A DNA stretch of 43,587 nt from a virus. The stretch spans positions 1 to 43,587 of IMG/VR virus record IMGVR_UViG_3300036768_001145. One strand, 5' to 3'. The position numbers were made by a program, and so were the translations under genes. Below the pieces are notes generated by a model. That model searched no databases, was not told the origin of the DNA, and saw only the letters and a program-made list of their open reading frames with translations. Below are positions 4,847-36,608 of this stretch, piece after piece; positions within the stretch are counted from its first letter, which is position 1; the number at the start of each line of letters is the position of its first letter.

Positions 4847-4914
4847 GGCTGACTCTGATTGTGATACTGCAGTTAAGTACGCATGCAAGAGGATCATTAA
4901 GGGATACAGGTATA

Positions 4915-6207: not shown

Positions 6208-6242
6208 GAATCCCCCGGCTTTAGCCGTGGGGAGGGCATCAA
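6150..6242 (+). ncRNA. predicted omega RNA of the TnpB element
   Basis: The 3' end of tnpB and the right end contain two stems: CTAGCG with CGCTAG near 6187-6207, and CCCC...GGGG near 6211-6232. The same layout occurs in the element at 8838-9220 with different but still pairing bases (GCTAGC/GCTAGC and CCCTTGG/CCAAGGG) around a shared GGAATCCC. Paired substitutions favour a structured RNA. The guide would start just past 6242 with AACTTACCAGACGATTGG. The 5' limit is approximate. Confidence 0.45.
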
Positions 6243-6410
6243 AACTTACCAGACGATTGGTAGGGTTTTGAGGAAAAGTCCAGGCAAGGAGTATGCCATT
6301 ATTGTGGACATAATGACACCTGGATACAAGCAGTTTGAAAATGCTCGAGAGAAACGGTTAAAGGTTTTTCAAAAGATTACCGATGATGTGATTGTAATCG
6401 GGGGTAAGAA

Positions 6411-7028
6411 GTGAAGGCAGTTGCACTTTCTTTATTGATAACAGCGTGTGGTCCAGCGGCTAAAGAGCCTGATCTTCCTAATATGCAGGATGCAGAATAC
6501 GCCTTTAGTGCATGGGTCTCCGATCATAGGGCGTCAACTCCTGAATTTGGACTCTATGAGATAACCAAGCTTTTTGAAAGAGCTTCTGACAAAGATCCGA
6601 AAATTGCAACTAAAATAGTCAATAATCTTTATGAGTTAGAATACATCAAAGAATCTAGCAATTTAGATCTGATTGGTGATCGCAAAAGACTCGGAGTGTG
6701 CTTTTTCGGAGGCGATAGGTCATTTGGCGTCGATGTCCTAGATAAAGCTGGCTTCGAGGCATTCAATAGGGATTATTTTGGTGATGAGGCCACTGAGGAA
6801 ACCCTGAATGCCTCTTGAGAGCTTGTGTGGCTCCATGAGCTAGGACACTGTTTAGGCAATCTTGGTCATGCAACACCGGAAGGTGTTTTGATTATGCAGC
6901 CATATGTTGGCTACACTTTGGTTTCTAAATACATGACCGATCAATCACTTTATTTGGATGAGCTGATCGATGCTATAGGTAATGAATCCGCAGGTTTGTT
7001 GCAAGAAGAGGTTGACGAAGAGATTTAA
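6411..7028 (+). pseudogene. putative secreted zinc metalloprotease lipoprotein with in-frame TGA
   Basis: The gene starts at the GTG at 6411, overlapping the helicase-remnant stop. It encodes a short signal with a lipobox-like LITAC, then a helical region. After TGA at 6816-6818 the same frame continues as ELVW, then HELGHCLGNLGH, the HExxHxxGxxH zinc motif of metzincins. Typical metzincins have a short W-H-E-L-G-H context like this, so the TGA lies just before the catalytic helix inside one gene of 206 codons. TGA is used as a normal stop elsewhere in the window, so recoding of the whole genome is unlikely. A point mutation, a base-call error or leaky readthrough remain. The expected location is the periplasm or outer membrane. 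Confidence 0.75.
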
Positions 7029-17168: not shown

Positions 17169-20100
17169 TTACATTCTAAATTTGATTGAGCCACTCTTCT
17201 TTGGTTTATCTTTGTCTTTCTCGTTGGTGATTTTTGTCCCGAATGGATCAGTTATGCCAAAATTGGATCTCATATGCTCAGCGAACTGAGCTTGAAGCTC
17301 TTGCTTGCGTTGATACTCAGCTATGGCTTCTTTGTCACCGATTAGAACGCCGGTTTTGAGATCCTGCTTTCTGTCTTGGTTAGCCAATATCGATATGTTG
17401 GACTCTTCAATAAAAGGAGCAAAGCAATACCGCGTCGGGTCACAATTATGGACCGCAACTCCGTTTGCTGTATAGGACTCATCCTCTTCCACGGCTATGT
17501 TATAGACAAGACCTGAGTATTTCATGGCACTGGTTTTGAGAACCAGATGGGCAGACTCTTTATCCCCGGATACGAACACCTTGCTGGAATCTTGAATATC
17601 ACGAGATACATCCAATACCGTCTTATTGACATACAGGTCTCTAAGCTCTTCTATCGCACTAATTTTGTTTTTGATCTTCTGTGACTCTGTTGCTGAAAAC
17701 TCGATTATATATTGTGGATGAGCCTTCTCTTGATTAGCCCTGGATGTGAACTTGATTCTTGGCGTTAGTCCCAGTTTGGTTGATAGGGTTAGCATACCAT
17801 AAGCAATACTAGGGCTTATCGAATTTACAGTTATTCTCTCACCAGTGAAGCAACCGTCACCAAAAAGATAACCCAAGAAAGCCCACCAAGTGTTTTCTTC
17901 GTTCATGATCATAAGCCATTCTGGCGGACTTTTTTCTGCTGATTTACCGAGTGGTTTGCATATTGACCACAATGATACTGAGTTTATTGTGATGACAGCA
18001 CTATTGCCACCACTATGAAAGACATTAGTAATATTTCCCTCGAAGAATGACGAGGCTTTGTCGAGTAGCCGCGCGACAGAAATTTCTTTGGCATGGCAGG
18101 CAAAACCCACCGCTCTCTTTTTTGATCCGTGATTGAGATTCTGAGAGCACGAACCTTCAGCTAAAAAATAACCAACCAAGAAGGATATGTATTTGTTATT
18201 TTTAACAAATCTGTTGATTTTTAGTTTTTTCCTTTGTGGCCTCATTATTTCTACCCAGTCGTCATTAAAGGCCGCTTCTTTGTGAAACTCAGATAAATCA
18301 AACACATGATCTTGCTCATCTATGGATGATGCATTAAAAATCAGAGCGTCTTTCGGTGCTAATGAGTTCTTGAGGGATTTCGTGATGCTGGACGCCTCCC
18401 TCCACTCTTGGCTACCTTCGATGATAACCAATTGACCAGTTTTTTGAACCCCGTCAATAATTCTATTGGATCTTTTTAGTGTTTTAGTGAGAAGTCGATG
18501 TTCGGGAGTCATCAATATCTCTTGTCGCCCAGCGGCCTTTAATGCCACCATCGAACCTTCGTATTGCCTGTTCATTGTGGCGTACACCCTACGGAATCGA
18601 CCTTTATGGGTCAAAACCATATCCCCTTCAATAATATCCTCAATCTTCTTGGTGCCTTGCGATGTTATAACCAGAGTGCCTGGAGCTAAGCAGAAGTCAC
18701 AATAATCATTGTCTTCAAACTTATCATAATCAAACCCAATCGGGGTCTTTTTGTATGTCCATTTCTCAAAAGCCTCAGCGAGCTTCCAGTTTTCTCCCTG
18801 ATCGCCATCATCAAGCAAAGAAAACATCTCTGTCTGCGCCCCTGGATTCCAGAGTAGCGATCTTATCTGAGATACACCGGTTTCAATCTTGGTTGGTTTA
18901 TAGTCAAGGCACGGCATCTTGTACTTGCCAAAATAGCTTGGCGATGCTGGATCTGCCATGTCTGGACACACCAAATCGCCCGGCCATTGAGACCATATAT
19001 TCTTTGCTATGTAGGCCGCCCAATCCGCATTGGCGTACTCATGGCTTGATGCTACATGAAACACAACACCTCTTTTCTGTCTTCTGTGATACGCGCCCAC
19101 AATACAGACAGCCGACGCTGGGTTGTAGCCCCAGTCAACTCCGTAGTTGATATCCCAGCCAAGATCAACCAGAGCTTTATAGATCGTGTGCTTATCTGGA
19201 GTTATCTTGATAAGAGTTAGCGGGTCATCCCTGTCGAGACCCTCTTCGATCTCCTCTTCGGTCATTCTCTCTGGGTTCCAATAGACACCAGTGATGAACT
19301 TATAGAACTCGTGAGGCTTAAGGAAGTGCCTGTGCCTTCTGAAGGTCTTGAATACAATCGATGAGCTTTCTGGTTTTAGGTTCAATGCTTGGGCGATGAT
19401 AGCCTCTGCCGAATTGACACTCCTAAGGATCAAACTAACGAAGTTTATGTCCCTGAGCATCTTACTCTTGGATTTTTGCTTGGGCGATCGAGCCTGACAC
19501 ACCACAAACGCTGGACAGGTCTTGCACCCCACATAGGCATCAATCTCTTGATTCAGAGTCTGCTCGGTTTTAGGAAGTCTTTTGAAGATCTCCTCATCCC
19601 AAGTCACCTTAAGGTTATCAGTATTGAGCCAAGCCTTGATTTTTGGCAATTCAGGCTTGTGAATCTCAGTAGGACACTTTCTCATCCAATCAACCGCAGA
19701 CCACTTGTGGAGCTTTAGGTCGGGTGGCGGATCCTTGCCCTCAGCCTCATCAATCTTTTGCTGCATAGGACCGTCATTGGTTTTACGAGATGACAGGTCG
19801 ATCTCAATAGGACCAAACCTGTGCTCGTCCTGAGTAGGGTCAGCGATGAAGACCGATTCTGAGATAATGGCAGGTGGCAATAGATCAGTCTCATCCCTCA
19901 TATTGAGGCTACCACGCTGGGAGTTAACACCCTTTTTGGTTGCAACAGATACCCTGAGCTTACATGAGTCGTTTTTGGTATGACTATTTGGCGGCAAGCC
20001 CTTAAGCTCTTTGGTTCTGGTGTTATCTATACTTATGTACTTATGTACCTCTGGGATAGCCAGGAACTTATCGAGGTAGCCAATGGCGGACTGAGATTGG

Positions 20101-20408
20101 TCCATGGTCGCAGCTAAGTGAGTTCCTGTTCTGCGAAAGTGAATCATGGAATAAAACCTGATAATACAGGCACTTAGCGTCTTTGAGCTGTTCCTCGACG
20201 CTGCAACAACATGTCTTTGTGGACCTTTTCCTGTTCGCATGAGATTATAGATTTCCCAGACAAAATCCATAGGAGTGCTAGTGGAGTTCTCATCGACAAT
20301 ACAATCCGGTAGATCAATTTTCAAAAAAGTCTTGATGTGTTGTTGAAGCTCTTCTTTAGATTCACAGATCTCAAATAAGAGCTCCTCTCTTGAAGAGGGA
20401 TTAGACAT
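17169..20408 (-). CDS. terminase large subunit with an intein
   Basis: The extein is about 663 residues. The ATPase domain has a Walker A-like ASRNSSKT at 70-77 and Walker B with RDE at 171-173. The RuvC-like nuclease shows GVDWGYNPAS (D425) and DMADPAS (D483, D486), and after splicing YCDF joins CDPTRYC, supplying the last acidic residue. An unusual small Cys cluster (C295, C298, C304) lies between the domains and could bind zinc. The protein pumps DNA into the prohead and cuts concatemers. The gene follows a probable small terminase and precedes the structural genes. The ATG overlaps the previous gene by 8 nt. Confidence 0.9.
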   Translation of the reverse strand: MSNPSSREELLFEICESKEELQQHIKTFLKIDLPDCIVDENSTSTPMDFVWEIYNLMRTGKGPQRHVVAASRNSSKTLSACIIRFYSMIHFRRTGTHLAATMDQSQSAIGYLDKFLAIPEVHKYISIDNTRTKELKGLPPNSHTKNDSCKLRVSVATKKGVNSQRGSLNMRDETDLLPPAIISESVFIADPTQDEHRFGPIEIDLSSRKTNDGPMQQKIDEAEGKDPPPDLKLHKWSAVDWMRKCPTEIHKPELPKIKAWLNTDNLKVTWDEEIFKRLPKTEQTLNQEIDAYVGCKTCPAFVVCQARSPKQKSKSKMLRDINFVSLILRSVNSAEAIIAQALNLKPESSSIVFKTFRRHRHFLKPHEFYKFITGVYWNPERMTEEEIEEGLDRDDPLTLIKITPDKHTIYKALVDLGWDINYGVDWGYNPASAVCIVGAYHRRQKRGVVFHVASSHEYANADWAAYIAKNIWSQWPGDLVCPDMADPASPSYFGKYKMPCLDYKPTKIETGVSQIRSLLWNPGAQTEMFSLLDDGDQGENWKLAEAFEKWTYKKTPIGFDYDKFEDNDYCDFCLAPGTLVITSQGTKKIEDIIEGDMVLTHKGRFRRVYATMNRQYEGSMVALKAAGRQEILMTPEHRLLTKTLKRSNRIIDGVQKTGQLVIIEGSQEWREASSITKSLKNSLAPKDALIFNASSIDEQDHVFDLSEFHKEAAFNDDWVEIMRPQRKKLKINRFVKNNKYISFLVGYFLAEGSCSQNLNHGSKKRAVGFACHAKEISVARLLDKASSFFEGNITNVFHSGGNSAVITINSVSLWSICKPLGKSAEKSPPEWLMIMNEENTWWAFLGYLFGDGCFTGERITVNSISPSIAYGMLTLSTKLGLTPRIKFTSRANQEKAHPQYIIEFSATESQKIKNKISAIEELRDLYVNKTVLDVSRDIQDSSKVFVSGDKESAHLVLKTSAMKYSGLVYNIAVEEDESYTANGVAVHNCDPTRYCFAPFIEESNISILANQDRKQDLKTGVLIGDKEAIAEYQRKQELQAQFAEHMRSNFGITDPFGTKITNEKDKDKPKKSGSIKFRM
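17445..18692 (-). mobile_element. 416-aa intein with LAGLIDADG endonuclease in the terminase
   Basis: It spans residues 573-988 of the precursor. Block A is CLAPGTLVITSQGTKKIEDI, block B MTPEHRLLT. The two LAGLIDADG helices are LVGYFLAEG (near 743-751) and FLGYLFGDG (near 843-852), block F is VYNIAVEEDESYTANG, and block G is VAVHN before the extein Cys. C1, the penultimate His, the terminal Asn and +1 Cys are all present. Both the splicing and the homing domains look intact. It lies immediately before the CDP motif of the nuclease active site, a highly conserved target. Confidence 0.93.
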
Positions 20409-25841: not shown

Positions 25842-26083
25842 TCTGGCACCCCCGCCACTTTCTCAAAGTTTTTGATTGCAAGCTTAGCCCAGTTAAAGGT
25901 ACTTCCGCAGCCTATATAACCAAGCTCTGCAGCATGATCCAGAACTAACTTGAGTTCCACCGATGCCTTGAGAATTTCATGCACGGATTCGATCTGATCG
26001 TCACTTAGCTCTGGAAAAAGCTTGTTCCCTTTTCTGTCGGAAACCGGTGTGGTATACGAAATCAGTTGTTCGATGGTATTCAT
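25838..26083 (-). CDS. helical hypothetical protein, 81 aa
   Basis: The ATG at 26083 (MNTIEQLISYTTPVSDRKGN) follows GGGAGG and overlaps the previous stop (ATGA); an upstream in-frame start is less likely. The rest is helical (DDQIESVHEILKASVELKLV). No family is recognised. Confidence 0.6.
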   Translation of the reverse strand: MNTIEQLISYTTPVSDRKGNKLFPELSDDQIESVHEILKASVELKLVLDHAAELGYIGCGSTFNWAKLAIKNFEKVAGVPE

Positions 26084-26298
26084 ATAACCTCCCATTCATC
26101 AAAGTCCGCCGCGCTATTTGACTCAAAGCCTGTCACACTCAGGGTGACCACCTGGAAGTAACGCTCATCCATTGACTTCTGAAGCCAAGGGAAGTGATCG
26201 GAGCATGAGAACCCTTCAGTGGCGTATTTATTGAAATCACTCTCCTCGGCTTGTATCCTGTAAATAGCCATGTGGCTACAAAATTGACACGTTTTCAT
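26080..26298 (-). CDS. zinc-knuckle hypothetical protein, 72 aa
   Basis: The ATG at 26298 (MKTCQFCSHMAIYRIQAEES) overlaps the previous stop and follows GGAGAAAGAG. CQFC-x-H near the start and FSCSDHFPW later (C, H) can complete a zinc site. It probably binds nucleic acid or protein. Unknown family. Confidence 0.6.
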   Translation of the reverse strand: MKTCQFCSHMAIYRIQAEESDFNKYATEGFSCSDHFPWLQKSMDERYFQVVTLSVTGFESNSAADFDEWEVI

Positions 26299-26480
26299 GA
26301 CTCTTTCTCCCATACCGTGTGTCCAAGGATCTCAACAGAGTAGAGTTTATAGCTATCATCATGAATGATATAGACTTTTTTAGACAAAACCATACCAAAG
26401 AGGAAAAACCCATAAGCCACCAACATCATATCTAAAAAATCTTCATTGAAAGGAATTTTGTGCCACCCAAAGAGCCGCAT
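26295..26480 (-). CDS. small membrane protein, 61 aa
   Basis: The first gene of the leftward operon, with AAGGAG before the ATG. Residues 17-34 (DMMLVAYGFFLFGMVLSK) form one membrane helix, followed by a short beta-rich tail. No family is recognised. Confidence 0.55.
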   Translation of the reverse strand: MRLFGWHKIPFNEDFLDMMLVAYGFFLFGMVLSKKVYIIHDDSYKLYSVEILGHTVWEKES

Positions 26481-26501
26481 AAGATCTCCTTTTGTGAATT
26501 A

Positions 26502-26525
26502 GGCCTCTGAAGAGGCCCTTTTAAT
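26502..26525. terminator. GC-rich hairpin in the divergent gap, possible terminator
   Basis: GGCCTC pairs with GAGGCC around TGAA, followed on the plus strand by CTTTTAATT. No plus-strand gene ends just before it, so it may stop stray rightward transcription or belong to the leader of the leftward operon. Confidence 0.35.
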
Positions 26526-26621
26526 TATGTACTAACCCACCACAACAAGCTTACAAATACCTTATCGGGACCCTATCCGAATAACTTTAGCCAAAAAAAG
26601 CAAAAGGGGTCGTTACTTCTT

Positions 26622-26646
26622 TTGACGCCCTCCCAGCGACTAAAGC
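26622..26646 (-). mobile_element. right-end remnant of the IS200/IS605-like family
   Basis: On the minus strand, TTTAGTCGCTGGGAGGGCGT then CAA matches the intact right end TTTAGCCGTGGGGAGGGCAT then CAA at most positions. No left end or tnpB is present within the 230-bp divergent gap, so this is a scar of an earlier insertion. Confidence 0.6.
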
Positions 26647-26710
26647 AAAAGAATTCTTCTAAGGTTTCTCAAGATTATAACCGATATGTGTTTCAAGGAG
26701 GTATCGAGAG

Positions 26711-27121
26711 ATGCTTAAGAATTTAGCTTGGTTTTTCATGGTGTTAAAGCAAGAAGTCAAAAAGCGCAAGTGGAGGGCGATCTTCAAATTCTTCACGAAC
26801 GATTGTTATCGGAATGATATCAAACGGCTGGCAGCAATGCTCCACGGACGAAAGTACGAGATAGTCTTACAGAAGGTAAAACTATCAAACATCGACTTCT
26901 CTCACGAAATCAATTACCCTTCTTGGGTGCTAACTCTGGCTATGGAACTGCGTACCGGGAGCCGCAGATTCACCAAACAACACAAACCAATCAAGGTCAT
27001 ACGTTCTCCAGGAACAAGCCAGTACACTGTGATCGACGGGAACCATCGTCTTATGGCTATGAAGCTGATTCTCGATCCAGAAGAATATGTTGAAGTTCGC
27101 TTCCTTAGACCAGTAGTCTAA
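26711..27121 (+). CDS. ParB/Srx-like domain protein, 136 aa
   Basis: After a basic N-terminal helical part, residues 55-127 show a ParB/sulfiredoxin-like fold: VKLSNIDFSHEINYPSW, then PIKVIRSPGTSQYTVIDGNH and RLMAMKLI. The segment 'IDGNHRLMAM' matches the ParB box II G-x-H-R-x-x-A pattern, which binds nucleotide. The usual C-terminal DNA-binding half is absent. An AAGGAGG precedes the ATG. It is the only plus-strand gene between 11.3 and 43.6 kb and converges on the DUF5664-like gene, overlapping it by 17 nt. Confidence 0.65.
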   Translation: MLKNLAWFFMVLKQEVKKRKWRAIFKFFTNDCYRNDIKRLAAMLHGRKYEIVLQKVKLSNIDFSHEINYPSWVLTLAMELRTGSRRFTKQHKPIKVIRSPGTSQYTVIDGNHRLMAMKLILDPEEYVEVRFLRPVV

Positions 27122-27401
27122 AGTTTTCCGCCGTACTGTTGAGACAAGACTTATCAACAGTACGGCGGAACCAACACGCAATATGCTCGCCTGATGGCAG
27201 ATTACCCTTCATCATGTGGCGCATGGCGGCACCAAACAGCTGGCTAAATGGGGCTCCTGCTGTATAATTCAGAGCCGCATACTTGACTGATCCAGCCCCG
27301 TAGACTCGACAGAGTTCGATATAAACCTCTGGAGGAATCTGTTCAAATGGCATTTTAAAAGAATTGAAACGCATGGCCTGTTTTGGTGTTTGCTCTGACA
27401 C
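27105..27401 (-). CDS. DUF5664-like (dNTP diphosphohydrolase N-terminal type) protein, 98 aa, altered end
   Basis: RFNSFKMPFEQIPPEVYIEL, GAGSVKYAALNYTAG and FGAAMRHMMKGNLPSGEHIA follow the pattern of phage DUF5664 proteins (R-F-N-x-x-K-x-x... PPE; G-x-x-KY; AA-x-RHM). The family normally ends with a His/Asp-rich helix (HHLAHA...). Here it is replaced by the coding of a 45-bp perfect inverted repeat (WFRRTVDKSCLNSTAENF). The C-terminus is therefore probably truncated. Confidence 0.6.
   Translation of the reverse strand: MSEQTPKQAMRFNSFKMPFEQIPPEVYIELCRVYGAGSVKYAALNYTAGAPFSQLFGAAMRHMMKGNLPSGEHIACWFRRTVDKSCLNSTAENFRLLV
27126..27170. repeat. 17-bp perfect inverted repeat, possible bidirectional terminator
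   Basis: TTCCGCCGTACTGTTGA (27126-27142) and its exact complement (27154-27170) flank an 11-base loop. A TTTT lies on one side. It sits between two convergent genes, as a bidirectional terminator would, but it also lies inside the end of the DUF5664-like frame. Confidence 0.75.
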
Positions 27402-27425
27402 TGGAATACCCTTAGTTATATAATA

Positions 27426-27577
27426 TTACTTGAGTCCGTGGCTTCTGACTATGCTTTTGTTGCATTTTTGCCGATCTTTCTTTTGCCGCTCCGCATTCTC
27501 TTTGTTTTTTCTCATGATCTCATCAAAATCAAACGAGTCTTTTTCTTTGGGGTGTCTTTTGGCTCTTGTTCTGACAT
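27426..27577 (-). pseudogene. small charged protein gene, broken by a missing base
   Basis: ATG at 27577, after AGGGGAT, starts MSEQEPKDTPKKK. Adding one base to the five-base run at 27540-27544 continues DSFDFDEIMRKNKENAERQK to a stop at 27426, giving 50 residues of very polar helix. Without the change the frame closes after 21 residues. No family is recognised. Confidence 0.65.
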
Positions 27578-27733
27578 AAGATCCCCTTAGCTCTTAAACC
27601 TAACATCTATCTTACCAGATTGTCATTTATTAGACAATACATACTACGGAGCGGGTCTCAAAAGAGGCCTCCGTCATTGATAAATTCAGTAAGAATTCGT
27701 AATTTTTAGCTAACGAAAAGAGTTATACACCGT
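27578..27733. promoter_or_regulatory. gene-free spacer with an operator-like palindrome
   Basis: ATTGTC-TAATAAAT-GACAAT in minus-strand reading (27619-27638) is an interrupted palindrome with 6-bp arms. A second weak stem, ACGGAG with CTCCGT, lies at about 27645-27675. I see no gene. It may hold a promoter for the leftward small genes. Confidence 0.4.
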
Positions 27734-27955
27734 TTAAAGCGTTTTTGAGTGGTGCCCTGGTATTTTTCTTATCTTATATTCACGGAATTTCGGACCCCAT
27801 GCTTCAGACTCAGCACAATTTTTTGAGCAAAAATCACCCGAGGCTTCCCCGCTTAGGTCATAGAGCCTGTACTTTTTTTGCATGTGCTCACCACACATTG
27901 GGCATTCATCATCATTGATGCCTGTTTCTTCTTTTCTCTTGACTTTAATATTCAT
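27734..27955 (-). CDS. zinc-ribbon hypothetical protein, 73 aa
   Basis: ECPMCGEHMQKKYRLYDLSG and FCSKNCAESEAWG place two Cys pairs (CxxC and CxxxC) about 25 residues apart, as in MYM/FCS-type or ribbon zinc fingers. The ends are basic. AGGAGCG precedes the ATG. Function unknown. Confidence 0.6.
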   Translation of the reverse strand: MNIKVKRKEETGINDDECPMCGEHMQKKYRLYDLSGEASGDFCSKNCAESEAWGPKFREYKIRKIPGHHSKTL

Positions 27956-27999
27956 TGAAACGCTCCTATTTCATTGAGTTAGCGACCTGCCTCGCTCCG

Positions 28000-28043
28000 C
28001 GTACTCGCAGGACTGAAGGCAGCGGATTTACAGCGGAATTTTG
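28000..28043 (-). mobile_element. probable left-end remnant of the IS200/IS605-like family
   Basis: On the minus strand TTTAC is followed by CAAAATTCCGCTGTAAATCC and GCTGCCTTCAG. This closely matches the left end of the 8838-9220 element (TTAC then CACGATTCCGCTGTAAAGCC). It lies just downstream of the nicotinamide phosphoribosyltransferase gene. The right end is not clear; CTAACTCAA near 27974 may be its eroded form. Confidence 0.6.
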
Positions 28044-28078
28044 GTAAAGCGCTTGGAAGACTGAGCCCCCGAATTATC

Positions 28079-29416
28079 TCAGTTTCGGATCTGTGTCAAG
28101 TCTTTTGCTCGCTCCCGAATTTGATCAAGAGTATATTCTTTGACAACCACACCATTCAAAAACACTGTCTGAAGTCTCAGATCATTCTCAAAGCGACCAG
28201 TCTTGGATTTCTTGAATGGTGCGTCTTTTGGACACTTGAAGACATCCCTGTACTGCCCATCAACGGCAATCGACGAGCATTTGTAGGCAAACTTCTGGGT
28301 ATCCCTGTTTACCTGTTGTAGCAAAGCTCCACCCATACCGAAGGCGACATTAGTAGCGGAGAACCCTGCCATGTGAGCCCAATCTAGGATTTCCTTGATG
28401 GAGTCCATATTGATTCCATCACCCTGTATCACTCTGACGTGGTTCAAAACCTTGTAACCTTTTTTGTTGACCACGGCTCCAAAACCGCGTTCAAGGTTTT
28501 GTAAAGTCTGAAGTACCATTGTGGCGGGGTGACCTGAATCAGGACGAATGATAACCGTAGCACCGGACTCAACAACTTTATCCCTCAGAGTTTTACCCCA
28601 GATCTCTTTGACTGCATACTCAAGATCATAGGAGTCAGATACGACAGCCACCAGAGATCCAGGTTTGGCAAATTTATTGAGCATGTTGTCGTAGGCAAGC
28701 GCCTCGCCATCAAGACCCCAAGATGTGATTGTGGAGTGCTCTGCAGCAGGAATGGAGAAGGCGGCCATTTCGTGCTTGTAATAGTAATTTGCAAATCTGA
28801 CACCTTCGATTGTATCTGAGCCCATAAAGTTTACCAAATGAGCTGCATTCCCGATACCAGCCGACTCCTCGGAAGACACACCACGATATCCAAAACAATG
28901 AAGCTTGAAATTTATTTCACCATCTGGATCATCAGAGCTTAATTGAAGGTTTTTATAGATTAAGTCACGACAATTCTTAGACAAAGTTGCAACTGTAGTT
29001 GGATACCAAATTTTTAAAAGTAAAGTTTCTACCCAGCCGGACAACCACGGGACTAATGGGTCGGTGTTCACCACCGTCATAAGTACGGTGCCGGTTGGTG
29101 TAACCATACCCTCAGGAATTGCGTTTATTCTAAGCGGCAAAAATCCGCCATGGTTATCCAGGATATGTTGCCATCCGGATTTTTCAAAAGGTAATCCGTG
29201 TGCCGCCAGAAAGGCGGCGGCTTCGTCTATATCTTCCTGAGTGATGGGTTTTGAAAGATATCTCTTGAGATAATACTGAAGCCCAAAGAACACGGTATGG
29301 TCGAAGTCTCCACCACGAGATTCCAAATAACAGTAATTCTCTTGAACTCCCGACGGCATTTGCCATGGATGCGAAAATTTGTACGAATCGGACTTAAGAA
29401 TTAGATTCTCTCTCAT
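28079..29416 (-). CDS. nadV: nicotinamide phosphoribosyltransferase (NAMPT)
   Basis: The start is the ATG at 29416, with AAGGAG eight bases upstream; the frame stays open for 37 further codons that do not belong to the family. The protein has NLILKSDSYKFSHPWQMPSG at the N-terminus, YLESRGGDFD, LPLRINAIPEGMV, TVLMTVVNTD, then the conserved HCFGYRGVSSEESAGIG, AAEHSTITSWG, VSDSYD, IIRPDSG and QGDGIN motifs of NAMPT. Length 445-446 is typical. It converts nicotinamide and PRPP to NMN for NAD salvage, as in other large phages. No NMN adenylyltransferase is seen here. A piece of a second copy lies just upstream. Confidence 0.92.
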   Translation of the reverse strand: MRENLILKSDSYKFSHPWQMPSGVQENYCYLESRGGDFDHTVFFGLQYYLKRYLSKPITQEDIDEAAAFLAAHGLPFEKSGWQHILDNHGGFLPLRINAIPEGMVTPTGTVLMTVVNTDPLVPWLSGWVETLLLKIWYPTTVATLSKNCRDLIYKNLQLSSDDPDGEINFKLHCFGYRGVSSEESAGIGNAAHLVNFMGSDTIEGVRFANYYYKHEMAAFSIPAAEHSTITSWGLDGEALAYDNMLNKFAKPGSLVAVVSDSYDLEYAVKEIWGKTLRDKVVESGATVIIRPDSGHPATMVLQTLQNLERGFGAVVNKKGYKVLNHVRVIQGDGINMDSIKEILDWAHMAGFSATNVAFGMGGALLQQVNRDTQKFAYKCSSIAVDGQYRDVFKCPKDAPFKKSKTGRFENDLRLQTVFLNGVVVKEYTLDQIRERAKDLTQIRN

Positions 29417-29565
29417 TTTTTGTAACTCCTTGTATTTATTATATAACTCAGGTAAAGATATGTCGCTTTTTCTATTTTTCTTAAGATTTTCTTTCGCTGA
29501 CATTTTTTGAATTCTGTATTTTATCAATAATATCAGATACTTTTGATATATTATCTAAATAGCTC
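29417..29565 (-). other. AT-rich junction between two NAMPT sequences
   Basis: This 150-bp AT-rich stretch separates the NAMPT fragment from the intact gene. It holds short frames such as SAKENLKKNRKSDISLPELY and YLDNISKVSDIIDKIQNSKN, which look like protein sequence but match nothing I recognise. They may be the end of a mobile-endonuclease gene that came with the intact copy. Confidence 0.4.
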
Positions 29566-29808
29566 TACTTGATCCGTGTTCACAACCGTCATAAGGACAG
29601 TGCCATTTTTGAGTACCGATCCTTCAGGAACAGCGTTGATTCTCAGTGGCAGCTTGCCCTTGAGTTCTCGAGCAATGTAAGCCCATCCATCGAGATTGAG
29701 CTCGAGACCGTGCTTTTTGAAAAACATAGCTGCTTCCAGCACGTTTTGTATTGTGATTGGGTTTTCTTCAAGATTCTTTAGTACAGCCTGTCCAATTATT
29801 CCGAAACC
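29566..29808 (-). pseudogene. internal fragment of a second NAMPT gene
   Basis: The frame reads QAVLKNLEENPIT, LEAAMFFKKHGLELNLDGW, KLPLRINAVPEGSV and GTVLMTVVNTD. It aligns to residues following FFGLQYYLKRYL of the intact protein: PIT, EAAAFLAAHG, LPLRINAIPEGMV, TVLMTVVNTD. It differs at many positions, so it is a diverged homologue and not a recent duplicate. Similarity ends sharply after VVNTD, then VELFR and a stop. The upstream side abuts the end of the second tnpB element. It lacks both ends and cannot function. Confidence 0.85.
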
Positions 29809-31353
29809 TTAAGCAACCGAAGTTGTTGAGGATTTCGAGATTTCTTGAACATTCCACGCTCTCGTGGTTTGGTCCGTGTCGTTACCCGTAATCGCCGCCT
29901 CGCGGCGTGAACTACGGAGCGTCACCGAGGAATCACTATCCTCGGGTAACACGATTCGGTCATCCATGACCGAGCGGAGCTGCTCCGCGCTACTTGCCAC
30001 TTGTTGATTCCGACGACAACTCAAAAATTTACCGCTCATACCTTTCATCGAAACCGGAGCAAGATACTTTTGGTTGCTTATCGCAACGAATTGACTATTG
30101 AAGACAGGTGCCTTCAAGCCGCATGTTTCCATGCTAAAAGACAATATATTCCAACAGCCTACCGAATCACGGTGGGCAATAAGACCACATTTTCTGCATT
30201 TATAAACCCGCCCCTTGATTTTATTGTGGTGTTTGCAAGTTGGGTCCGGACACTGTCTGGTGCTGTTTCTTTCAGGCATCCATTCCGCCTTGATTCCGTC
30301 CGTGACAGCTTTGTAGCTTATCATTGAAAAGAATTCACCTATTGGCCAACCGCTATTAGCTTGGTTTTGACGGCCACCGGAGTCTTTTTGGGTAAGCGAC
30401 CGACAATCCCCCACGAAGACCTTTGTTATGGCATGCAATTTCAGGAAGTTAACGACTTTTCGACTGTTCGTGTGAAGGAAATTATTCTTCTGATTATGAT
30501 ATTTGATCAATACCAAAGACTTCTTTTTCTGCTCTTTGTGGCGGTTTTTGGAACCTTTCTTCTTTCTATCAATCCGAGACTGGCGGAAAGCTAGCTTTTT
30601 ATTCACATCGCGGTGGATGGAACGAAAGCCTTTGCCCTTGAGGTTCAAGGTTTTGCCATCCTCAGTCATGACTGCTGCCCAACGTATTTGTCCCAAGTCA
30701 ATGGCCGCATATTTCGCTGTCTTGACCTTATCAGACAGTGTCCTTGCCTTCTTTTCTTTGAGTTTAAAAATCAAATAGAACCTTTTCTCAACCGCGTCAA
30801 AATGGATAGAGATCGCTGTCGTATTTTTGGGGATTCCCTGACGATAGGGAATAAATAGTGGTTCACGACGCTTCATTTTACCGTTCTTGGGATTTGGTTC
30901 CATTGCCATCCCAACGGTAAAGCCGCCTTTGACGTTATGGCATTCACGGCGGTCGAAGTGGGTGTCCCGACCACCTTTTCTTTGCCTGTATGGATATTTG
31001 TAGGTCTTCCATACATCCTTCTCTCCTGCCTCAATTGCCTTTTCACGGTTGGTCTTCGTTGTTTCGCAAATCCCAAGAAATTCTTGAAATATCAGATTTT
31101 GAGATTGGGTCGTAAGATTAAGGCCTAAAAGAGCAGTATTTTCGGTCATTTGCCTCGCTAAATCCATACTGGAAAAATATGGAAGCTCTTTATTCCGGGC
31201 CATCTTATGCATGTCGATGAGCGAGTTCCAGATCCAAGAGACATCAGCTCGCATAGCGATTAATTTCTGAAACTCGGAATCAGGCAATGGCGGCATAGGA
31301 GTTTTTAAAACCCTATACTCGAACTTTCCCCTTTTGCCTTTTCTCGATGTCAT
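29809..31353 (-). CDS. tnpB: second, distinct TnpB-type nuclease with long C-terminal extension
   Basis: This 514-residue protein has RuvC-I AAIDLGQIRW (D219), RuvC-II FVGDCRS (D316 in place of the usual Glu), candidate E361 in MPERNSTRQC, a zinc finger C368, C373, C386, C389, and RuvC-III HRDSVGCWNIL (D396). The WIWNSLIDMH start and KTYKYPYRQR part fit TnpB. It is only distantly related to the copy at 5161. The last 100 residues or so show no protein domain and overlap strong RNA hairpins, so they may be read from guide-RNA sequence. It lies against the NAMPT fragment. No tnpA is present. Confidence 0.85.
   Translation of the reverse strand: MTSRKGKRGKFEYRVLKTPMPPLPDSEFQKLIAMRADVSWIWNSLIDMHKMARNKELPYFSSMDLARQMTENTALLGLNLTTQSQNLIFQEFLGICETTKTNREKAIEAGEKDVWKTYKYPYRQRKGGRDTHFDRRECHNVKGGFTVGMAMEPNPKNGKMKRREPLFIPYRQGIPKNTTAISIHFDAVEKRFYLIFKLKEKKARTLSDKVKTAKYAAIDLGQIRWAAVMTEDGKTLNLKGKGFRSIHRDVNKKLAFRQSRIDRKKKGSKNRHKEQKKKSLVLIKYHNQKNNFLHTNSRKVVNFLKLHAITKVFVGDCRSLTQKDSGGRQNQANSGWPIGEFFSMISYKAVTDGIKAEWMPERNSTRQCPDPTCKHHNKIKGRVYKCRKCGLIAHRDSVGCWNILSFSMETCGLKAPVFNSQFVAISNQKYLAPVSMKGMSGKFLSCRRNQQVASSAEQLRSVMDDRIVLPEDSDSSVTLRSSRREAAITGNDTDQTTRAWNVQEISKSSTTSVA
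29850..29950 (-). ncRNA. predicted structured omega RNA at the 3' end of the second tnpB
   Basis: Three strong stems lie within 100 bases: CCACG-CTCT-CGTGG near 29864, CGCCGC-CTC-GCGGCG at 29893-29907 and CCGAGGA...TCCTCGG at 29925-29945. GTTACCC (29881) can pair with GGGTAAC (29944-29950) to enclose the last two. Such a multi-stem fold at the 3' end of tnpB is the usual place of the guide RNA. Exact limits are unknown. Confidence 0.45.
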
Positions 31354-31470
31354 CGAAATTCCGTTCTACCGAAATAATTATTTTTCAGAACTTTAATCCC
31401 GTCAATACCTTTACCGATTTGAGGGTTGTGCTGAGATTTTCTCTTAAAGTGTATCCAAATTTTGCCACGT
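31354..31470 (-). other. short stretch before the second tnpB, probable left end or broken gene
   Basis: An ATG overlapping the metallophosphoesterase stop (ATGA) opens 29 codons, MNVAKFGYTLRENLSTTLKS, ending early. Another frame reads RGKIWIHFKRKSQHNPQIGK, GIDGIKVLKNNYFGRTEF, which looks more like protein. A frameshifted small gene cut by the tnpB element is likely; the boundary is not visible. Confidence 0.35.
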
Positions 31471-32105
31471 TCATTGTCTATCTCCTATATTTCCATATTT
31501 CTTTCTTAGTGTGATCCAGCTCTCAATTTGACTCGAGGATACTGGGCGATAATTATTCGCTTTAATCCCAACATCCCACTGTCTGTCGAGGGTTCTTTCT
31601 TCTGGTCCTTTGTGGCAGTGTCCATGAAGATGGTACTGACCCCAATCAGGGATGCTGAAGTGTTTGTGTTTTGTCTCGCCGTGCCAGTTCTCACCAAGGT
31701 GAGAGTTCTTCATCTGTGATGTATCTTCGCGGAAAACACCTCTGAGTGGGCAATGAGTCATTGTGACGGTCTCACCTGCTATGACTATTGATGCCATATA
31801 AAGAACGACATCAAACCCAGCGCGCTTCATTGAGCTTGCGTTTTTATCGTGATTCCCAAGGATGAGTATCTTGGTGCCGTTTAGTTGCTCGACTATAGAC
31901 CGCGTCTCCTCGACATTCCCCATGGAGAAGTCGCCAAGAAAGTAGCAGGTATTATCATTGCTAACGCATGCGTTGTAGTTATTGATCAACACACGATGCA
32001 TATGATCCATATCAGTGAATGGTCTTTTGTCAAAATCAATCACGTTTTTATGAAAGCAATCTAATGCCAATCAGAGGTAAAGTATGTATTAAATACTTGT
32101 GCCAT
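31471..32105 (-). pseudogene. calcineurin-like metallophosphoesterase with one missing base near its start
   Basis: The body shows LGDFSMGN, ILGNHDKN, MTHCPL and HLHGHCHK, the GD, GNHD, H and GHxH metal motifs of small MPE-family enzymes. The present frame lacks the first motif. Starting at the ATG at 32105 (AGGAGG ten bases upstream) and adding one T at 32063-32064 gives MAQVFNTYFTSDWHLDCFHK, with the required D-x-H, and a 211-residue enzyme. The substrate is unknown (cyclic nucleotides or RNA ends are possible). Whether it is inactive or misread depends on that one base. Confidence 0.8.
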
Positions 32106-32217
32106 GATTGGATTTCCTCCTATTGTGTTTGATTATTGTTGAAGCAACGGTTCCGTACTTTAAACCCAAATGATTGGCTATTTCGGTACGCGAAAAACCA
32201 TCATTAAATAAATCCAT
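32089..32217 (-). CDS. 42-aa helix-turn-helix peptide, possibly a fragment
   Basis: MDLFNDGFSRTEIANHLGLK, YGTVASTIIKH is a clear helix-turn-helix. The ATG overlaps the stop of a 16-codon frame before it (TAATG), and its end overlaps the metallophosphoesterase start. This may be the DNA-binding part of a lost regulator or homing endonuclease. Confidence 0.4.
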   Translation of the reverse strand: MDLFNDGFSRTEIANHLGLKYGTVASTIIKHNRRKSNHGTSI

Positions 32218-32267
32218 TATCCCACCCTGTCCTCAACTGTTTCGGCCAGGATTGGCTTGGTGATCAT
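32217..32267 (-). pseudogene. possible DNA-ligase start peptide, 16 codons
   Basis: MITKPILAETVEDRVG and a stop. 'KPxLA-x-T-V-E-D' is how many phage ATP-dependent DNA ligases begin, and AGAGGG precedes the ATG. The rest of such a gene is absent. Too short for certainty. Confidence 0.3.
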
Positions 32268-32277
32268 AGCACCCTCT

Positions 32278-32450
32278 TCAGTTAAGTCTGAGGTTAATGT
32301 ATTCGGCATCCAGAAAGACAATCTTTCCTGAAGACTTTAAACTATCAAAATCAAACTTGACATGATCGCTTTTTCATGGCGGCGTCAATAGCGTTTGGGA
32401 TTTTTCTACCACCCATAAGAGGTCTTGCTCCGATACAAAAAGTATTTCAT
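32278..32450 (-). pseudogene. small conserved protein gene with two homopolymer errors
   Basis: ATG at 32450 after GGAG. Removing one base from the A5 run at 32437-32441 and one from the T5 run at 32370-32374 gives MKYFCIGARPLMGGRKIPNA, IDAAMKSDHVKFDFDSLKSS, GKIVFLDAEYINLRLN, 56 residues in a single frame. The pieces in three frames are otherwise too well ordered to be chance. No function is recognised. Confidence 0.6.
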
Positions 32451-32451
32451 C

Positions 32452-32868
32452 TCAATTTCTCCACCTTTTTTCGTCAACAAAATTAATCCTAAGCATTACA
32501 GCATCTTGCAAAGGATACCTCTCTATCTTATCGTAAACATTGAGTCTATCAAAGGTGTGCTGACTCTTATGCTCCCAATAGATATCGATATGCTCAGTCA
32601 CCATATAACCAAGTTTGTAAGCCCAGCTTGCTGTGCAAATCTTTTCATAGCAAGACTCATAAGAGATCCGGTTATCCCAAAAGACATAACTCCACTCAAG
32701 ACCGATCTCCCACCTTACAGCAGAACCCCACTTTCCCATAGGAACTTCAGGGAGTATCGGATCTCTATTGTGAATGAGTTCGCCACCAGACAAAGACAGG
32801 TGATAAACTCTTGGCTCCGCCAAAGAGACTGTGCTTAAAAGTAGCATAATTAAAACTAAAAACCTCAT
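32452..32868 (-). CDS. secreted hypothetical protein, about 138 aa
   Basis: The ATG at 32868 (MRFLVLIMLLLSTVSLAEPR) follows AAGGAG and encodes a clean signal peptide with cleavage after SLA. The mature part is rich in Trp and Tyr and in alternating strands (WGSAVRWEIGLEWSYVFWDN; GYMVTEHIDIYWEH), as in small outer-membrane or periplasmic beta-barrel proteins. Two Cys (SCYEKIC) may pair. A surface or superinfection-exclusion role is possible. Confidence 0.65.
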   Translation of the reverse strand: MRFLVLIMLLLSTVSLAEPRVYHLSLSGGELIHNRDPILPEVPMGKWGSAVRWEIGLEWSYVFWDNRISYESCYEKICTASWAYKLGYMVTEHIDIYWEHKSQHTFDRLNVYDKIERYPLQDAVMLRINFVDEKRWRN

Positions 32869-33875
32869 ATCATACTCCTTAGGATCATCATACAAAATAG
32901 AAAATCACCACCAGAATGTACAGTGATTTCTTCGTCTTCAGAAGGTGACCAACCGCTTGAATCATCACCCCTCTGCGTTATCCAACCCTCTTTTCGGAGT
33001 TTTGAGTCAGGAAGTTTAGTGTTAGGCCATAATTTTTGCAACAATGCGATAGCATTACTGTAATCACCATGCACCCACTTGGCTGCCAAAAGTTGCGCCA
33101 AAGCATTACGCTCCATTCTATTTGCTATGTCTTTTAGGCACTCTCTCATTGACGTGGTGATATATCCTTTGATTTGACCACGAAGCTCAATATGAAGCAT
33201 GGCCAGATGGGCTTCATAATCCTCGAGCCCTTTTGGCCACGAAAGGGGGAGGTGTCTATCCAAGTTGCTTGGGCCGTCATAGATCGCTGCTACAATCTCA
33301 TCTAAAGTGGATCTAAGACCAGGACCGAAATAGAGCCTTGAAATATCGCCTTCGCCCATAACCCAGTCGTTTTTCTCTCCGTAGTACTGAAGATTGAGGG
33401 CTAAGGCGACATCTTTTTTCATCCAAATATGCCAAAGTAACCCGGTCAGCATATCTCTCGATATGGTGGAGCCTTTGCACGGTGGATATTTGAGTGGTCT
33501 ACGAAACCACGCGCCATTATCGTTTTGTGCCGCACGTATGTCAATATTATTGGACTTAATAGATGCCGACAGGAGGGAAGTGAAAAGGAGCGAATCACAG
33601 TGCTTTGTTTCTATGAATCCGTACTCATCCATAACACTAAGAACAAGGGCCTTATAAAGCACATCTTTCCGGATCAAATCATTAAGATCTTTGAATTTCT
33701 GAAGATCGCGTACGTCGTATTTAATAGGTTTGTGATGTACGTCAAAAAGACGCTTAATAACAACAAAAGGTGTGATCAGGTAGAGGATGATGTTGGCGAT
33801 TTTGGCGATTTTGCGGAGAAGTGCAGTATTATACTTGTTTTTCTCGAACCACTTTAAAGCTAATTCTTTCAGCAT
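32865..33875 (-). CDS. membrane-anchored hypothetical protein, about 336 aa
   Basis: I place the start at the ATG at 33875 (MLKELALKWFEKNKY), because earlier in-frame ATGs lie inside the terminator hairpin and GAGG lies six bases upstream. Residues 22-40 (IANIILYLITPFVVIKRLF) form one membrane helix. The rest is soluble and helical with NGAWFRRPLKYPPC, ISRDMLTGLLWHIWMKKD and WVMGEGDISRLYFGPGLRST. The repeated aromatic helices recall an alpha/alpha-toroid enzyme fold, but I cannot assign a family. Confidence 0.55.
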   Translation of the reverse strand: MLKELALKWFEKNKYNTALLRKIAKIANIILYLITPFVVIKRLFDVHHKPIKYDVRDLQKFKDLNDLIRKDVLYKALVLSVMDEYGFIETKHCDSLLFTSLLSASIKSNNIDIRAAQNDNGAWFRRPLKYPPCKGSTISRDMLTGLLWHIWMKKDVALALNLQYYGEKNDWVMGEGDISRLYFGPGLRSTLDEIVAAIYDGPSNLDRHLPLSWPKGLEDYEAHLAMLHIELRGQIKGYITTSMRECLKDIANRMERNALAQLLAAKWVHGDYSNAIALLQKLWPNTKLPDSKLRKEGWITQRGDDSSGWSPSEDEEITVHSGGDFLFCMMILRSMI

Positions 33876-33884
33876 CTTACGCCT

Positions 33885-33925
33885 CATAATGAAAAGGGAT
33901 GCTAAGCGCATCCCTTTTCATTATG
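33885..33925. terminator. strong terminator after the tail-fibre operon
   Basis: An 18-bp perfect stem (CATAATGAAAAGGGATGC with its complement) and a 5-base loop. Read on the minus strand the stem contains an A-run before and a T-run after the GC core (AAAAGGGATGC...GCATCCCTTTT), so it can act in both directions. It lies 15 bases past the last tail gene. Confidence 0.85.
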
Positions 33926-33940
33926 GCATAATGTTAGAGA

Positions 33941-34294
33941 TTACGCAAGACCTAGCTCTTGGCGGGTGACGGGCAGGTTTGCAATCAGTTTTTTCTGAGT
34001 GGTAGAAAGCTGATTCCAATCCTTAGTAACTGCGTCAGCCTTGAGCTCTTGGATCTTTTCATCAATCATGAATTGCGGAACATAAGATTGAGCTTCCGGA
34101 GAAACAGAACCAAGCGCAGCCCAATAAGAGCGGAGGTTTTGCTCTTGGCCTGCGCTGAGCTTCTCGGTGAACCAAAAGGTCAAAGCCGTGTCAGCCGAAT
34201 TACCAACACAATGAGGGAAGTTCGCTTTTACGTAAGCTTCAACTGCTTGAAGGTCCACATTGTGAGCATGCCACTCTAACTTATATGCGTGCAT
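33941..34294 (-). CDS. hypothetical protein at the end of the tail operon, 117 aa
   Basis: An alpha/beta protein with an Ala-rich helical region (SAGQEQNLRSYWAALGSVSP) and a final helix-turn (LSTTQKKLIANLPVTRQELG). It follows the long fibre gene by one base and is the last gene before the terminator. This is where fibre chaperones or assembly proteins are usually found, so that role is possible; no sequence match is recognised. Confidence 0.55.
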   Translation of the reverse strand: MHAYKLEWHAHNVDLQAVEAYVKANFPHCVGNSADTALTFWFTEKLSAGQEQNLRSYWAALGSVSPEAQSYVPQFMIDEKIQELKADAVTKDWNQLSTTQKKLIANLPVTRQELGLA

Positions 34295-34295
34295 A

Positions 34296-36608
34296 TTAAA
34301 TCTCCACTACGATAAGGGATCTTTGGGTTGCCGGTGAAGCAGCTGTTCCGGCGTTAGTGTACCAATAAAGGTCCACTTTGTGGGTACCAGCAGCGACCGG
34401 AACTATAAAGCAATCCGAGATAGTTTCGCTGTAACCAGCAACTGGAGTATCCATGTACTTTTGCGTGCCGACAAACACACCATCAACATAGACGTTGATG
34501 GCTACGGTATTGCCGGCAGCTGTGTTGTTTCTGACAGTTACAGCATAGCTGATCTGAATCGGATTTCCGGCTGTCTTAAGGGTTACACTCATATCCGTCA
34601 TAGGTACAGCTGTAGTGCTTGTCGTTGTTGGCGTAGTAGTCACACCAATCGCCTGAGCCCAGTTTACCAAAGGCTTGACTGAAGTTGCGCTAAACTTGCG
34701 ATTGTCTGAGATTGCACACGAGCCAACACTTGAGGTGTTTTGGATGTCACCAGGGAGGTTGCCTTTGGGTGCATGGATAGGGGTGATGATGTCCAAAGCT
34801 TCCGAATAATGTTGGTTAGCGTTACCGGTCGTAAACTTGATTGTATGAAAGCCGAGCGTCAGCCCAGTAACACGCAACCTCAATCGCCCTGTTCCAGCGC
34901 TGGTTCCACTAAGAACACCGGTAGAGGCTGTGAACGACAGACCAGAGGATGTCTGAAGCAGCTGAGTTGTTAGGGCACCCGTCCAACCCGCTCCGCCAGT
35001 TGGGGACGAATTGGAAACTGTGAAGTTGGTTGCTCCATCTAATGTATATGTGGCACTCATCGCGTTTGTGAATACGAACTGACTCCACTCAAAACCTGTT
35101 CCAAAGAACGTGTACGACACAGAAGACGCACTTGCACCGGATTGTGTACCAAACCCGCTTTCATAGTTTGCCACATTAACAGAACCGGCGGACCATGTGC
35201 CTGCATAAACCGCTTCCCGAACCGCAAGGAACTTACGCAAAGTTCCGGTAGGCATAAACTCTCTGGTCGCAACAGTAGATGCGGCATAATCAGCCATCAC
35301 ATAGTAATCAGCCAATTCGACGCAGTCCGTAGGAAGAGTTGGTTTAGACGGGCCATAGACGATAAACTGACTAATACCGACAGCACTGTTAGCAAAAGCA
35401 TCCCTTGTCATTTTGAATGTGTGTGTTCCATACGGCAAGCCGGATGCAACTTTTTGAATCCTGTTTGTGGTATTGCCAGTACCGGTTATAGTCCCCTGAC
35501 TGGTACCATCGATGTACAATGTGTGCTGATCCAGTGTACCAGTCTGGTCGATTCTTAAAAAATCCAAACCAGTGCCAACAAAAGTCAAAGTTATAAACGC
35601 AGCATTCGCCTGAATGGTAAGATATTCCTGGGAACTACCAAGTACAGCTACCGTGGACCCAACCAGAGTTGTTGTGCCGTCATCAAGGGTGAAAGCTCTC
35701 GCTGAGCCGGATGCCCCTAACGTGCTAAAATCATCAGACCTTCCCGCGCCAAACTCGCGCCAAGAATAAGTCCGAATAACTTCCTCATTTGCGTGACTTG
35801 CTGATGACAAATACGCCGCGGTCGTTTCGGTATACCGAATATCCTTTGCCACAGTTCCATCAGCTTTTTGATAGACCAACACATGGCCGCCGCGTGTACC
35901 AGCGGTGCCATAAGTATTGGTGAAGCCCGAGGTAGGGTTAGAGGTCGTCAAACCTGGAGCATAAAGACGTTTGCCACCAAGATAAGATGTGCCGGCAGTT
36001 TGCTGTAAGGTGCTGTTAGTATTGAGGACTTCATAGCCGTAAACTAAAATATCAGCCCCGACATATGCCACTTTAACAGTATGAATACCGAGTGCTAAAC
36101 CAGAGGAAACATTAATAACACCGTTTTGGGCATAATTCCTTCCGTTTAACACGGTAGAACCTGAATTCGTAACAGTAGTGGCACTACCACCATCAACACT
36201 AACAGACATACTGCGAGTGCTGCCATCTGTATATAGCAGGAGATTCAATCCTGTTCCGTAAAATGTGTATTCCGCATAAGAGCCAGCTTGTATATTAACT
36301 CGAGAACCCTGTGAATCATTTCCGTCAGTAATCAAACCCACAAATCTGACAGCGTCATGTTGATCATTAACAGGCTTAAATACTCTTTCGCCGTTTGGTC
36401 CAGACTCACCCTGGACTTCTTGAATAGCCTGAGTCATAACTCGCTCAATACCAAATCTTGGCAAAAGGTCATTACTAAAATCTGTACACTGCGCCCTTTT
36501 GACTACGGTAGTATATGGCGCGGCAATTTTTGGCAGATAGACAACAGGTTTTAACTGGGTAGCTAAAGCCTGATCGGTGTCTTTCGTGAATACTGCTATC
36601 TTGGCCAT
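34296..36608 (-). CDS. long tail fibre / receptor-binding protein with repeated beta domains, 770 aa
   Basis: After an N-terminal MAKIAVFTKDTDQALATQLK module come at least three related beta-sandwich repeats. Each has a 'Y/F-T-F-x-G-T-G' strand and a closing 'G-x-H-T-x-K' strand: YTFYGTGLNLLL...GIHTVKV, LTFVGTGLDFLR...GTHTFKM and YTFFGTGFEWSQ...GFHTIKF. These resemble carbohydrate-binding jelly-roll modules and suggest binding to host surface glycans. The C-terminus carries VGSCAISDNRKFSATSVKPL and a final Val/Thr-rich domain. There is no signal peptide. It belongs to the co-directional fibre block. The start module recurs in the small broken gene at 37782-38005. Confidence 0.7.
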   Translation of the reverse strand: MAKIAVFTKDTDQALATQLKPVVYLPKIAAPYTTVVKRAQCTDFSNDLLPRFGIERVMTQAIQEVQGESGPNGERVFKPVNDQHDAVRFVGLITDGNDSQGSRVNIQAGSYAEYTFYGTGLNLLLYTDGSTRSMSVSVDGGSATTVTNSGSTVLNGRNYAQNGVINVSSGLALGIHTVKVAYVGADILVYGYEVLNTNSTLQQTAGTSYLGGKRLYAPGLTTSNPTSGFTNTYGTAGTRGGHVLVYQKADGTVAKDIRYTETTAAYLSSASHANEEVIRTYSWREFGAGRSDDFSTLGASGSARAFTLDDGTTTLVGSTVAVLGSSQEYLTIQANAAFITLTFVGTGLDFLRIDQTGTLDQHTLYIDGTSQGTITGTGNTTNRIQKVASGLPYGTHTFKMTRDAFANSAVGISQFIVYGPSKPTLPTDCVELADYYVMADYAASTVATREFMPTGTLRKFLAVREAVYAGTWSAGSVNVANYESGFGTQSGASASSVSYTFFGTGFEWSQFVFTNAMSATYTLDGATNFTVSNSSPTGGAGWTGALTTQLLQTSSGLSFTASTGVLSGTSAGTGRLRLRVTGLTLGFHTIKFTTGNANQHYSEALDIITPIHAPKGNLPGDIQNTSSVGSCAISDNRKFSATSVKPLVNWAQAIGVTTTPTTTSTTAVPMTDMSVTLKTAGNPIQISYAVTVRNNTAAGNTVAINVYVDGVFVGTQKYMDTPVAGYSETISDCFIVPVAAGTHKVDLYWYTNAGTAASPATQRSLIVVEI

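Follow-up and report, generated by a model that had tools for sequence, protein, structure and literature searches.

The window analysed here is the whole of IMG/VR record IMGVR_UViG_3300036768_001145 (43,587 bp); among its genes are those of a phage terminase, a portal protein and a helicase. Searched at the protein level, the record gave exactly two matches to NAMPT (nicotinamide phosphoribosyltransferase, an enzyme of NAD synthesis), namely an intact gene and a fragment of a second gene. Read along the minus strand, the locus consists of a phosphoesterase gene, a TnpB gene, the NAMPT fragment, an AT-rich spacer and the intact NAMPT gene (Table 1). A short frame (MNVAKFGYTL.., nt 31446–31475, minus strand), the ATG of which overlaps the phosphoesterase stop, reaches the left flank of TnpB and may represent what is left of the beginning of another gene.

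Table 1. Features of the NAMPT locus, of the helicase locus of the same record, and of two comparable loci in other phages (L080, L085).
Feature	Position (nt)	Strand	Basis or remark
Intact NAMPT gene	28079–29416	-	Open frame; Pfam and PHROG matches
Intact NAMPT, 5' segment (aa 1–126)	29039–29416	-	Site-likelihood attachment scan and dynamic-programming segmentation
Intact NAMPT, middle segment (aa ~127–190)	28847–29038	-	Limits aa 125–127 (sharp) and 177–192 (soft)
Intact NAMPT, 3' segment (aa ~191–445)	28079–28846	-	L066/L057/L064-like or L070/L072-like
AT-rich spacer/leader, including the RBS of the intact gene	29417–29571	none	No endonuclease or intron remnant recognised
Displaced NAMPT 5' fragment (aa 47–119)	29572–29808	-	Ends at VVNTD; domain and PHROG matches
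TnpB gene abutting the fragment	29809–31353	-	OrfB_IS605 and Cas12f1-like_TNB matches
Phosphoesterase gene upstream of TnpB	31471–32070	-	Stop overlaps ATG of short frame
Helicase gene with mini-intein and AT-rich 3' part	2837–4846	+	
Endo VII/HNH-type endonuclease, C-terminal remnant	4847–5037	+	phrog_1035, E = 1e-7; second search, E = 5.6e-10
First TnpB gene	5152–6207	+	
Displaced helicase 3' tail	6235–6414	+	Behind TnpB
Nuclease-like ORF	L080: 4357–5391; L085: 4354–5385	-	DUF7487 match only

At the DNA level, nt 26000–36000 had no match among 50,697 phage records. Relatives of the portal protein are 50–60% identical to that of the window; NAMPT is absent from those of their contigs that were fetched, and a search around the neighbouring phosphoesterase found no synteny with NAMPT. 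The nearest relatives found are about 62% identical to the intact gene and about 57% to the fragment, with nothing closer. A first-pass annotation of this DNA had proposed to look for relatives carrying the fragment-type gene uninterrupted; a further scan for genes of the fragment type gave nothing nearer than the set already known.

The intact gene has its own ribosome-binding site, as already annotated: AAGGAG stands in front of an ATG at nt 29416. Its product matches Pfam NAMPT_N and NAPRTase over the whole length as well as PHROG 448 (E = 3e-143), is alignable with solved NAMPTs over aa 3–410, and keeps the active-site motifs DSYK, EHST, SDSYD, RPDSG, QGDG, GMGG and RDTxKFA. The HDFG motif reads HCFG (aa 173–175, nt 28892–28900, minus strand); the aspartate is found in nearly all of 81 homologues, L075 having serine (HSF). 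About 20 aa near the C-terminus are also absent and, given this loss and the HCF sequence, the enzyme may be altered.

The fragment (about nt 29566–29808, minus strand) matches NAMPT_N (E = 3.5e-6) and PHROG 448 (E = 8.5e-10) and is 52% identical to the intact gene over aa 47–121 in the protein search of the record. It had been described as the N-terminal third of the enzyme with a sharp stop after VVNTD. The stop is indeed sharp: homology ends at VVNTD (nt 29572), after which the frame continues through QVELFR, six codons, to a stop codon at nt 29551. The description is incomplete at the other end, where the first ~46 codons are also missing, and these were found nowhere else in the record by protein search. 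The fragment is thus cut at both ends, with TnpB at one cut and the spacer at the other. Internal stops are absent, and at 13 of the 13 fragment columns in which eight full-length homologues show no variation the fragment has the conserved residue. Across 63 ungapped codons, fragment and gene share 57% of their amino acids, and their nucleotides agree at 71% of second but 32% of third codon positions. Saturation at third positions, with second positions so much better conserved, indicates that the two diverged long ago under selection, as working genes in different lineages. The earlier view of the fragment as diverged is therefore upheld, and a recent duplication of the intact gene is excluded by this codon comparison. 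On the tree, the fragment falls either with L075/L131/L146 or with L066, two placements that tie (lnL 0 for the L075 group and -0.7 for L066), while a position as sister of the intact gene is 8.5 lnL units worse and is retained by the AU test (p = 0.25, with 74 residues only). The phylogeny called for in the first-pass annotation thus separates the best reference-tree places of gene and fragment and leaves that of the fragment tied.

The intervening spacer measures about 149–155 bp. Its description as some 150 bp of AT-rich sequence is accurate: nt 29417–29565 (149 bp, 23.5% GC) tops the window in AT content for its length, only 0.02% of all 149-bp stretches being equally AT-rich, and the next ones lie in the 3' part of the helicase gene (nt 4311–4830). 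Endonuclease remains, which it had been suggested to seek here, were not recognisable by Pfam, PHROGs or a home-made endonuclease HMM, the best score of the spacer being matched by 12% of shuffles. A search of nt 27000–32500 against Rfam gave no match at E ≤ 0.5, and hence none to group I introns (RF00028) at this locus.

A first hint that the intact gene is not uniform was that its best relative shifts along its length. The branches of a 34-taxon tree (65 attachment points) were each tried as a position for the gene, with site likelihoods summed. Residues 1–62 favour the L122/L075/L131/L146 group (the placement of this stretch alone is weak), 63–118 the L040/L048/L055 group, 119–185 the L075 group (L066 group 23 lnL units worse), and 186–445 the L066/L057/L064 or L070/L072 groups. 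For the last of these the L075 group is strongly rejected (-54 lnL, AU p = 3e-14). Taken together, aa 1–118 fit a superclade, L112–L097, which contains L040, L048 and L055, so the 5' part may have a single source. The middle segment is L075/L131-like, and third-position GC drops to 0.15–0.3 at codons 141–180. Segmentation by dynamic programming gave lnL gains of 28.0, 41.5 and 55.5 for two, three and four segments; the maxima over 29 recombination-free simulations were 7.2, 11.3 and 15.3, and 25 real phage NAMPTs gave means of 9.5, 18.0 and 24.4 and maxima of 19.3, 32.9 and 38.2. The first switch is sharp, confined to aa 125–127, and lies 6–8 codons from the point where the fragment ends (aa 119), so that two independent signals agree on a break to within 6–8 codons. 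The second is softer (aa 177–192) and may be an older exchange. Judged by these affinities the intact NAMPT gene is a mosaic: its 5' part differs in origin from its 3' part, with which it is fused in frame. The claim that it is a complete foreign gene is not supported, as its segments have no single affinity and its 3' part rejects the L075 group.

Other lines of analysis were set aside. A pairing of L035-like and L075-like genes as the two parents proved too simple, as the scan of 65 attachment points favoured other groups. The correlation of similarity profiles was only suggestive, and base composition gave a mixed picture as a marker of foreign origin, only codons ~141–180 being AT-rich within the gene.

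At the helicase locus, the helicase gene, the product of which has an intein of about 179 aa without an endonuclease domain in the DECQH motif (PF14890), is followed by an endonuclease remnant, a TnpB gene and a displaced helicase tail. This tail resembles L014/L015, which falls short of proof that it is the native end. An apparently complete HNH homing-type endonuclease gene (nt 214–957, minus strand; PHROG 374, E = 4e-23) with an I-HmuI-like NUMOD domain lies near this locus. The NAMPT locus had been said to mirror the helicase locus, and TnpB and a displaced gene end are found at both; an endonuclease remnant is recognisable only at the helicase locus, and the NAMPT gene is not a complete foreign gene.

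TnpB adjoins the fossil at two of the two loci in the window, in agreement with the first-pass annotation: the second TnpB gene, of IS200/IS605 type by its OrfB_IS605 and TNB domains, ends at the base next to the NAMPT fragment, and the helicase tail lies behind the first. The further proposal, that settling of TnpB elements in dead remainders is a general step, is not borne out by the parallels described below (L080, L085), where no TnpB was found beside the displaced ends. A neutral landing place is enough to explain the position of TnpB. Relatives of the second TnpB protein were not found in the viral or genome contigs searched. The last ~150 nt of its gene may form a guide RNA of the omega type, their predicted fold being equalled by 2 of 200 shuffles (z = -3.0).

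Endonuclease genes are found next to NAMPT in related phages. In L075 such a gene (nt 2426–2998) directly precedes NAMPT (nt 3001); an Endo VII/HNH-type gene also lies directly upstream in L066 and, with a short gap, in L120, and just downstream of NAMPT in L129 and L040. Only a C-terminal or N-terminal piece of the endonuclease is present upstream of NAMPT in L052 and L062. These genes match the HNH (374, 3118) and Endo VII-like (1035) PHROG families, their Pfam matches being weak, and the remnant at the helicase locus belongs to the same family. Across 149 NAMPT loci, the distance to NAMPT is 350 bp or less for seven of 12 Endo VII/HNH genes, versus 1.5 expected (p = 2e-4), the 350-bp limit having been picked after the data were seen and covering 12% of the flanking DNA. 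An endonuclease gene beside its putative target gene in relatives, as in intronless homing, is thus present.

Mirror-image products, with a 3' rather than a 5' piece displaced, occur in L080 (with near-identical contigs) and L085. Each has a full NAMPT gene, an opposite-strand ORF of about 344 aa and a displaced NAMPT 3' piece (aa ~374–462). The two ORFs are 49% identical and share Cys-rich N-termini, repeated GLNxHxR modules and a D...E-V-K pattern, which in our reading of the motif resembles that of PD-(D/E)XK nucleases; it is possible that they represent an uncharacterised homing endonuclease family. For the L085 protein, AlphaFold gave a model too poor to use (pLDDT 45). The L080 NAMPT is 91% identical to L055 in its N-part and 47% in its C-part, and the best relatives of the displaced tail (L104, L047, L055) are relatives of the N-part as well, while the C-part has different ones. 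Third-position GC falls from 0.53–0.78 to 0.38–0.47 at about codon 360, and segmentation of this mirror case places a switch at ~388 (gain 27.8); the method thus recovers a case in which the nuclease-like gene is still in place.

On balance, we favour the interpretation that one end of the gene was swapped in a one-sided endonuclease event and that the NAMPT locus is the resulting scar. In our reading, a leader and a foreign 5' end would have been inserted into the native gene and the native 5' piece stranded, and which of the pieces are native is ambiguous. A free-standing Endo VII/HNH homing endonuclease, encoded just upstream of NAMPT in another phage, would have cut the resident NAMPT near codons 119–127. 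The donor NAMPT would then have served as homologous template for repair of the 3' end of the break, its first ~126 codons being copied together with the leader, while the other end, having no homology beyond the leader, would have been joined illegitimately, leaving the resident 5' piece outside as the fragment. What is seen today is a second 5' end, diverged and truncated, beside a mosaic NAMPT gene that is open and has its own RBS, and a TnpB gene abutting the dead fragment, which has lost its first ~46 codons. Against a single swap, one event leaves over the further switch near aa 177–192. A homing endonuclease is credibly involved, and as the cause is supported indirectly; the earlier suggestion that homing replaces genes is backed by the endonuclease genes that flank NAMPT in relatives and by the mirror products in L080 and L085, and weakened by the mosaic nature of the gene and by a spacer in which no endonuclease is recognisable.

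Comparable gene hybrids are known from fungal mtDNA (Allomyces atp6; Glomus atp6, atp9, cox2 and nad3), where a selfish, mobile endonuclease ORF arrives together with the terminus of a foreign gene and the native terminus is pushed aside (PMC3630166). As in those cases, a foreign terminus appears fused in frame to a resident gene with the native terminus left beside it, and the helicase locus, L080 and L085 match the layout with an endonuclease, nuclease-like gene or remnant in between. The NAMPT locus shares a displaced second terminus beside a full gene and a chimera whose switch lies at the displaced terminus, but nt 29417–29571, between the two, gave no match to an endonuclease ORF. It differs further in that the host is a phage and that the 5' rather than the 3' end is replaced. 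The NAMPT scar is, on these features, a phage, 5'-end counterpart of the mitochondrial hybrids.

Individual steps of this kind are known from phage T4, where the free-standing endonucleases SegF and SegG carry out intronless homing and one-sided illegitimate repair after homing cleavage is documented (PMC2988022). As there, an endonuclease gene lies beside a conserved gene, the neighbouring gene would be cut in relatives, and flanking sequence would be copied. Standard homing is two-sided and leaves no fossil, whereas here one side was apparently joined without homology. A 1999 study, as cited in PMC2988022, had homology on one side and illegitimate joining on the other, in an experiment with introns. 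The NAMPT-adjacent endonucleases and the helicase remnant match Endo VII-like PHROG 1035, in line with F-CphI and other homing endonucleases with an Endo VII motif (PMC6083498), but the putative enzymes here also match the HNH PHROGs (374, 3118). The phage literature consulted, mostly without subscription papers, covers homing, marker exclusion and spliced gene fragments and gave no account of such a product, which is weak evidence of novelty.

The strongest competitor, which we consider a real though distinctly less probable explanation, is ordinary recombination, without an endonuclease, between two phages with different NAMPTs, at the conserved GTVLMTVVNTD and elsewhere, that left a duplicated 5' end; the nearby endonucleases would then be coincidental. 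It accords with the bare spacer, with the mild mosaicism common in phage NAMPTs (gains up to 38 with four segments in the controls) and with the position of the 177–192 switch, which falls in a highly conserved motif that readily permits homologous exchange. It does not account for the concentration of endonuclease genes at the ends of NAMPT, for the nuclease-like genes that in L080 and L085 lie precisely where the chimera gives way to the displaced piece, or for the same-family remnant at the helicase locus. The version of the first-pass annotation, that a complete foreign NAMPT was inserted beside a resident gene which then decayed to the fragment, is improbable: one open gene with its own RBS, behind an AT-rich leader unlike the rest of the window, would fit it, but the affinities of that gene are not uniform, the group resembled by its middle part is rejected for its 3' part, and the switch coincides with the end of the fragment. 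There is very little to recommend a tandem partial duplication of one gene with decay of the extra 5' copy, which as a recent event is effectively refuted by the saturated third positions (32% against 71% at second positions) and the full set of conserved residues, even though the likeness of gene and fragment is highest at the boundary (LPLRINA.PEG, GTVLMTVVNTD) and the AU test keeps them as sisters. Least credible of all is that the locus preserves part of a NAMPT once split by a group I intron or an intein, with the fragment as exon 1 and a later overwriting by an intron-less copy. Group I introns do interrupt NAMPT of other phages at KLHDFGA|RGVSS, the site of the second switch, but the fetched homologues have no intron at the VVNTD position and Rfam found none in nt 27000–32500 at E ≤ 0.5.

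Descriptions of phage mosaicism usually take the gene as their unit. If homing breaks do swap parts of genes, chimeric enzymes and stray gene ends would be explained, and whole-gene trees of such genes should be read with caution. Several stages can be read from the loci compared: an endonuclease next to a gene still uncut (L075), a nuclease-like gene in between (L080, L085), a remnant (helicase locus, L052) and a bare scar (the NAMPT locus of the window). More tentatively, and with somewhat less confidence than in the single case, we suggest that homing endonucleases routinely swap 5' or 3' ends of phage genes one-sidedly, producing in-frame chimeric metabolic and replication genes together with displaced native ends, that NAMPT is a hotspot, and that the dead ends collect mobile genes such as TnpB.

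Other intervening elements were seen during these comparisons. Group I introns with an endonuclease-like ORF interrupt phage NAMPT at KLHDFGA|RGVSS in L199 (~2838–3122) and L202 (~2811–3109), both of which match Rfam RF00028, and also in L240 and L241; the site coincides with the second switch (aa 177–192). In L235–L237 (~3076–4187), NAMPT is broken near aa 238 by ~1.1 kb that carries, by eye, a GIY-YIG-like ORF. Within the window, the terminase large subunit (nt 17169–20408, minus strand) contains an intein with a LAGLIDADG-like domain, the flanking parts of which are nearly contiguous in L009.
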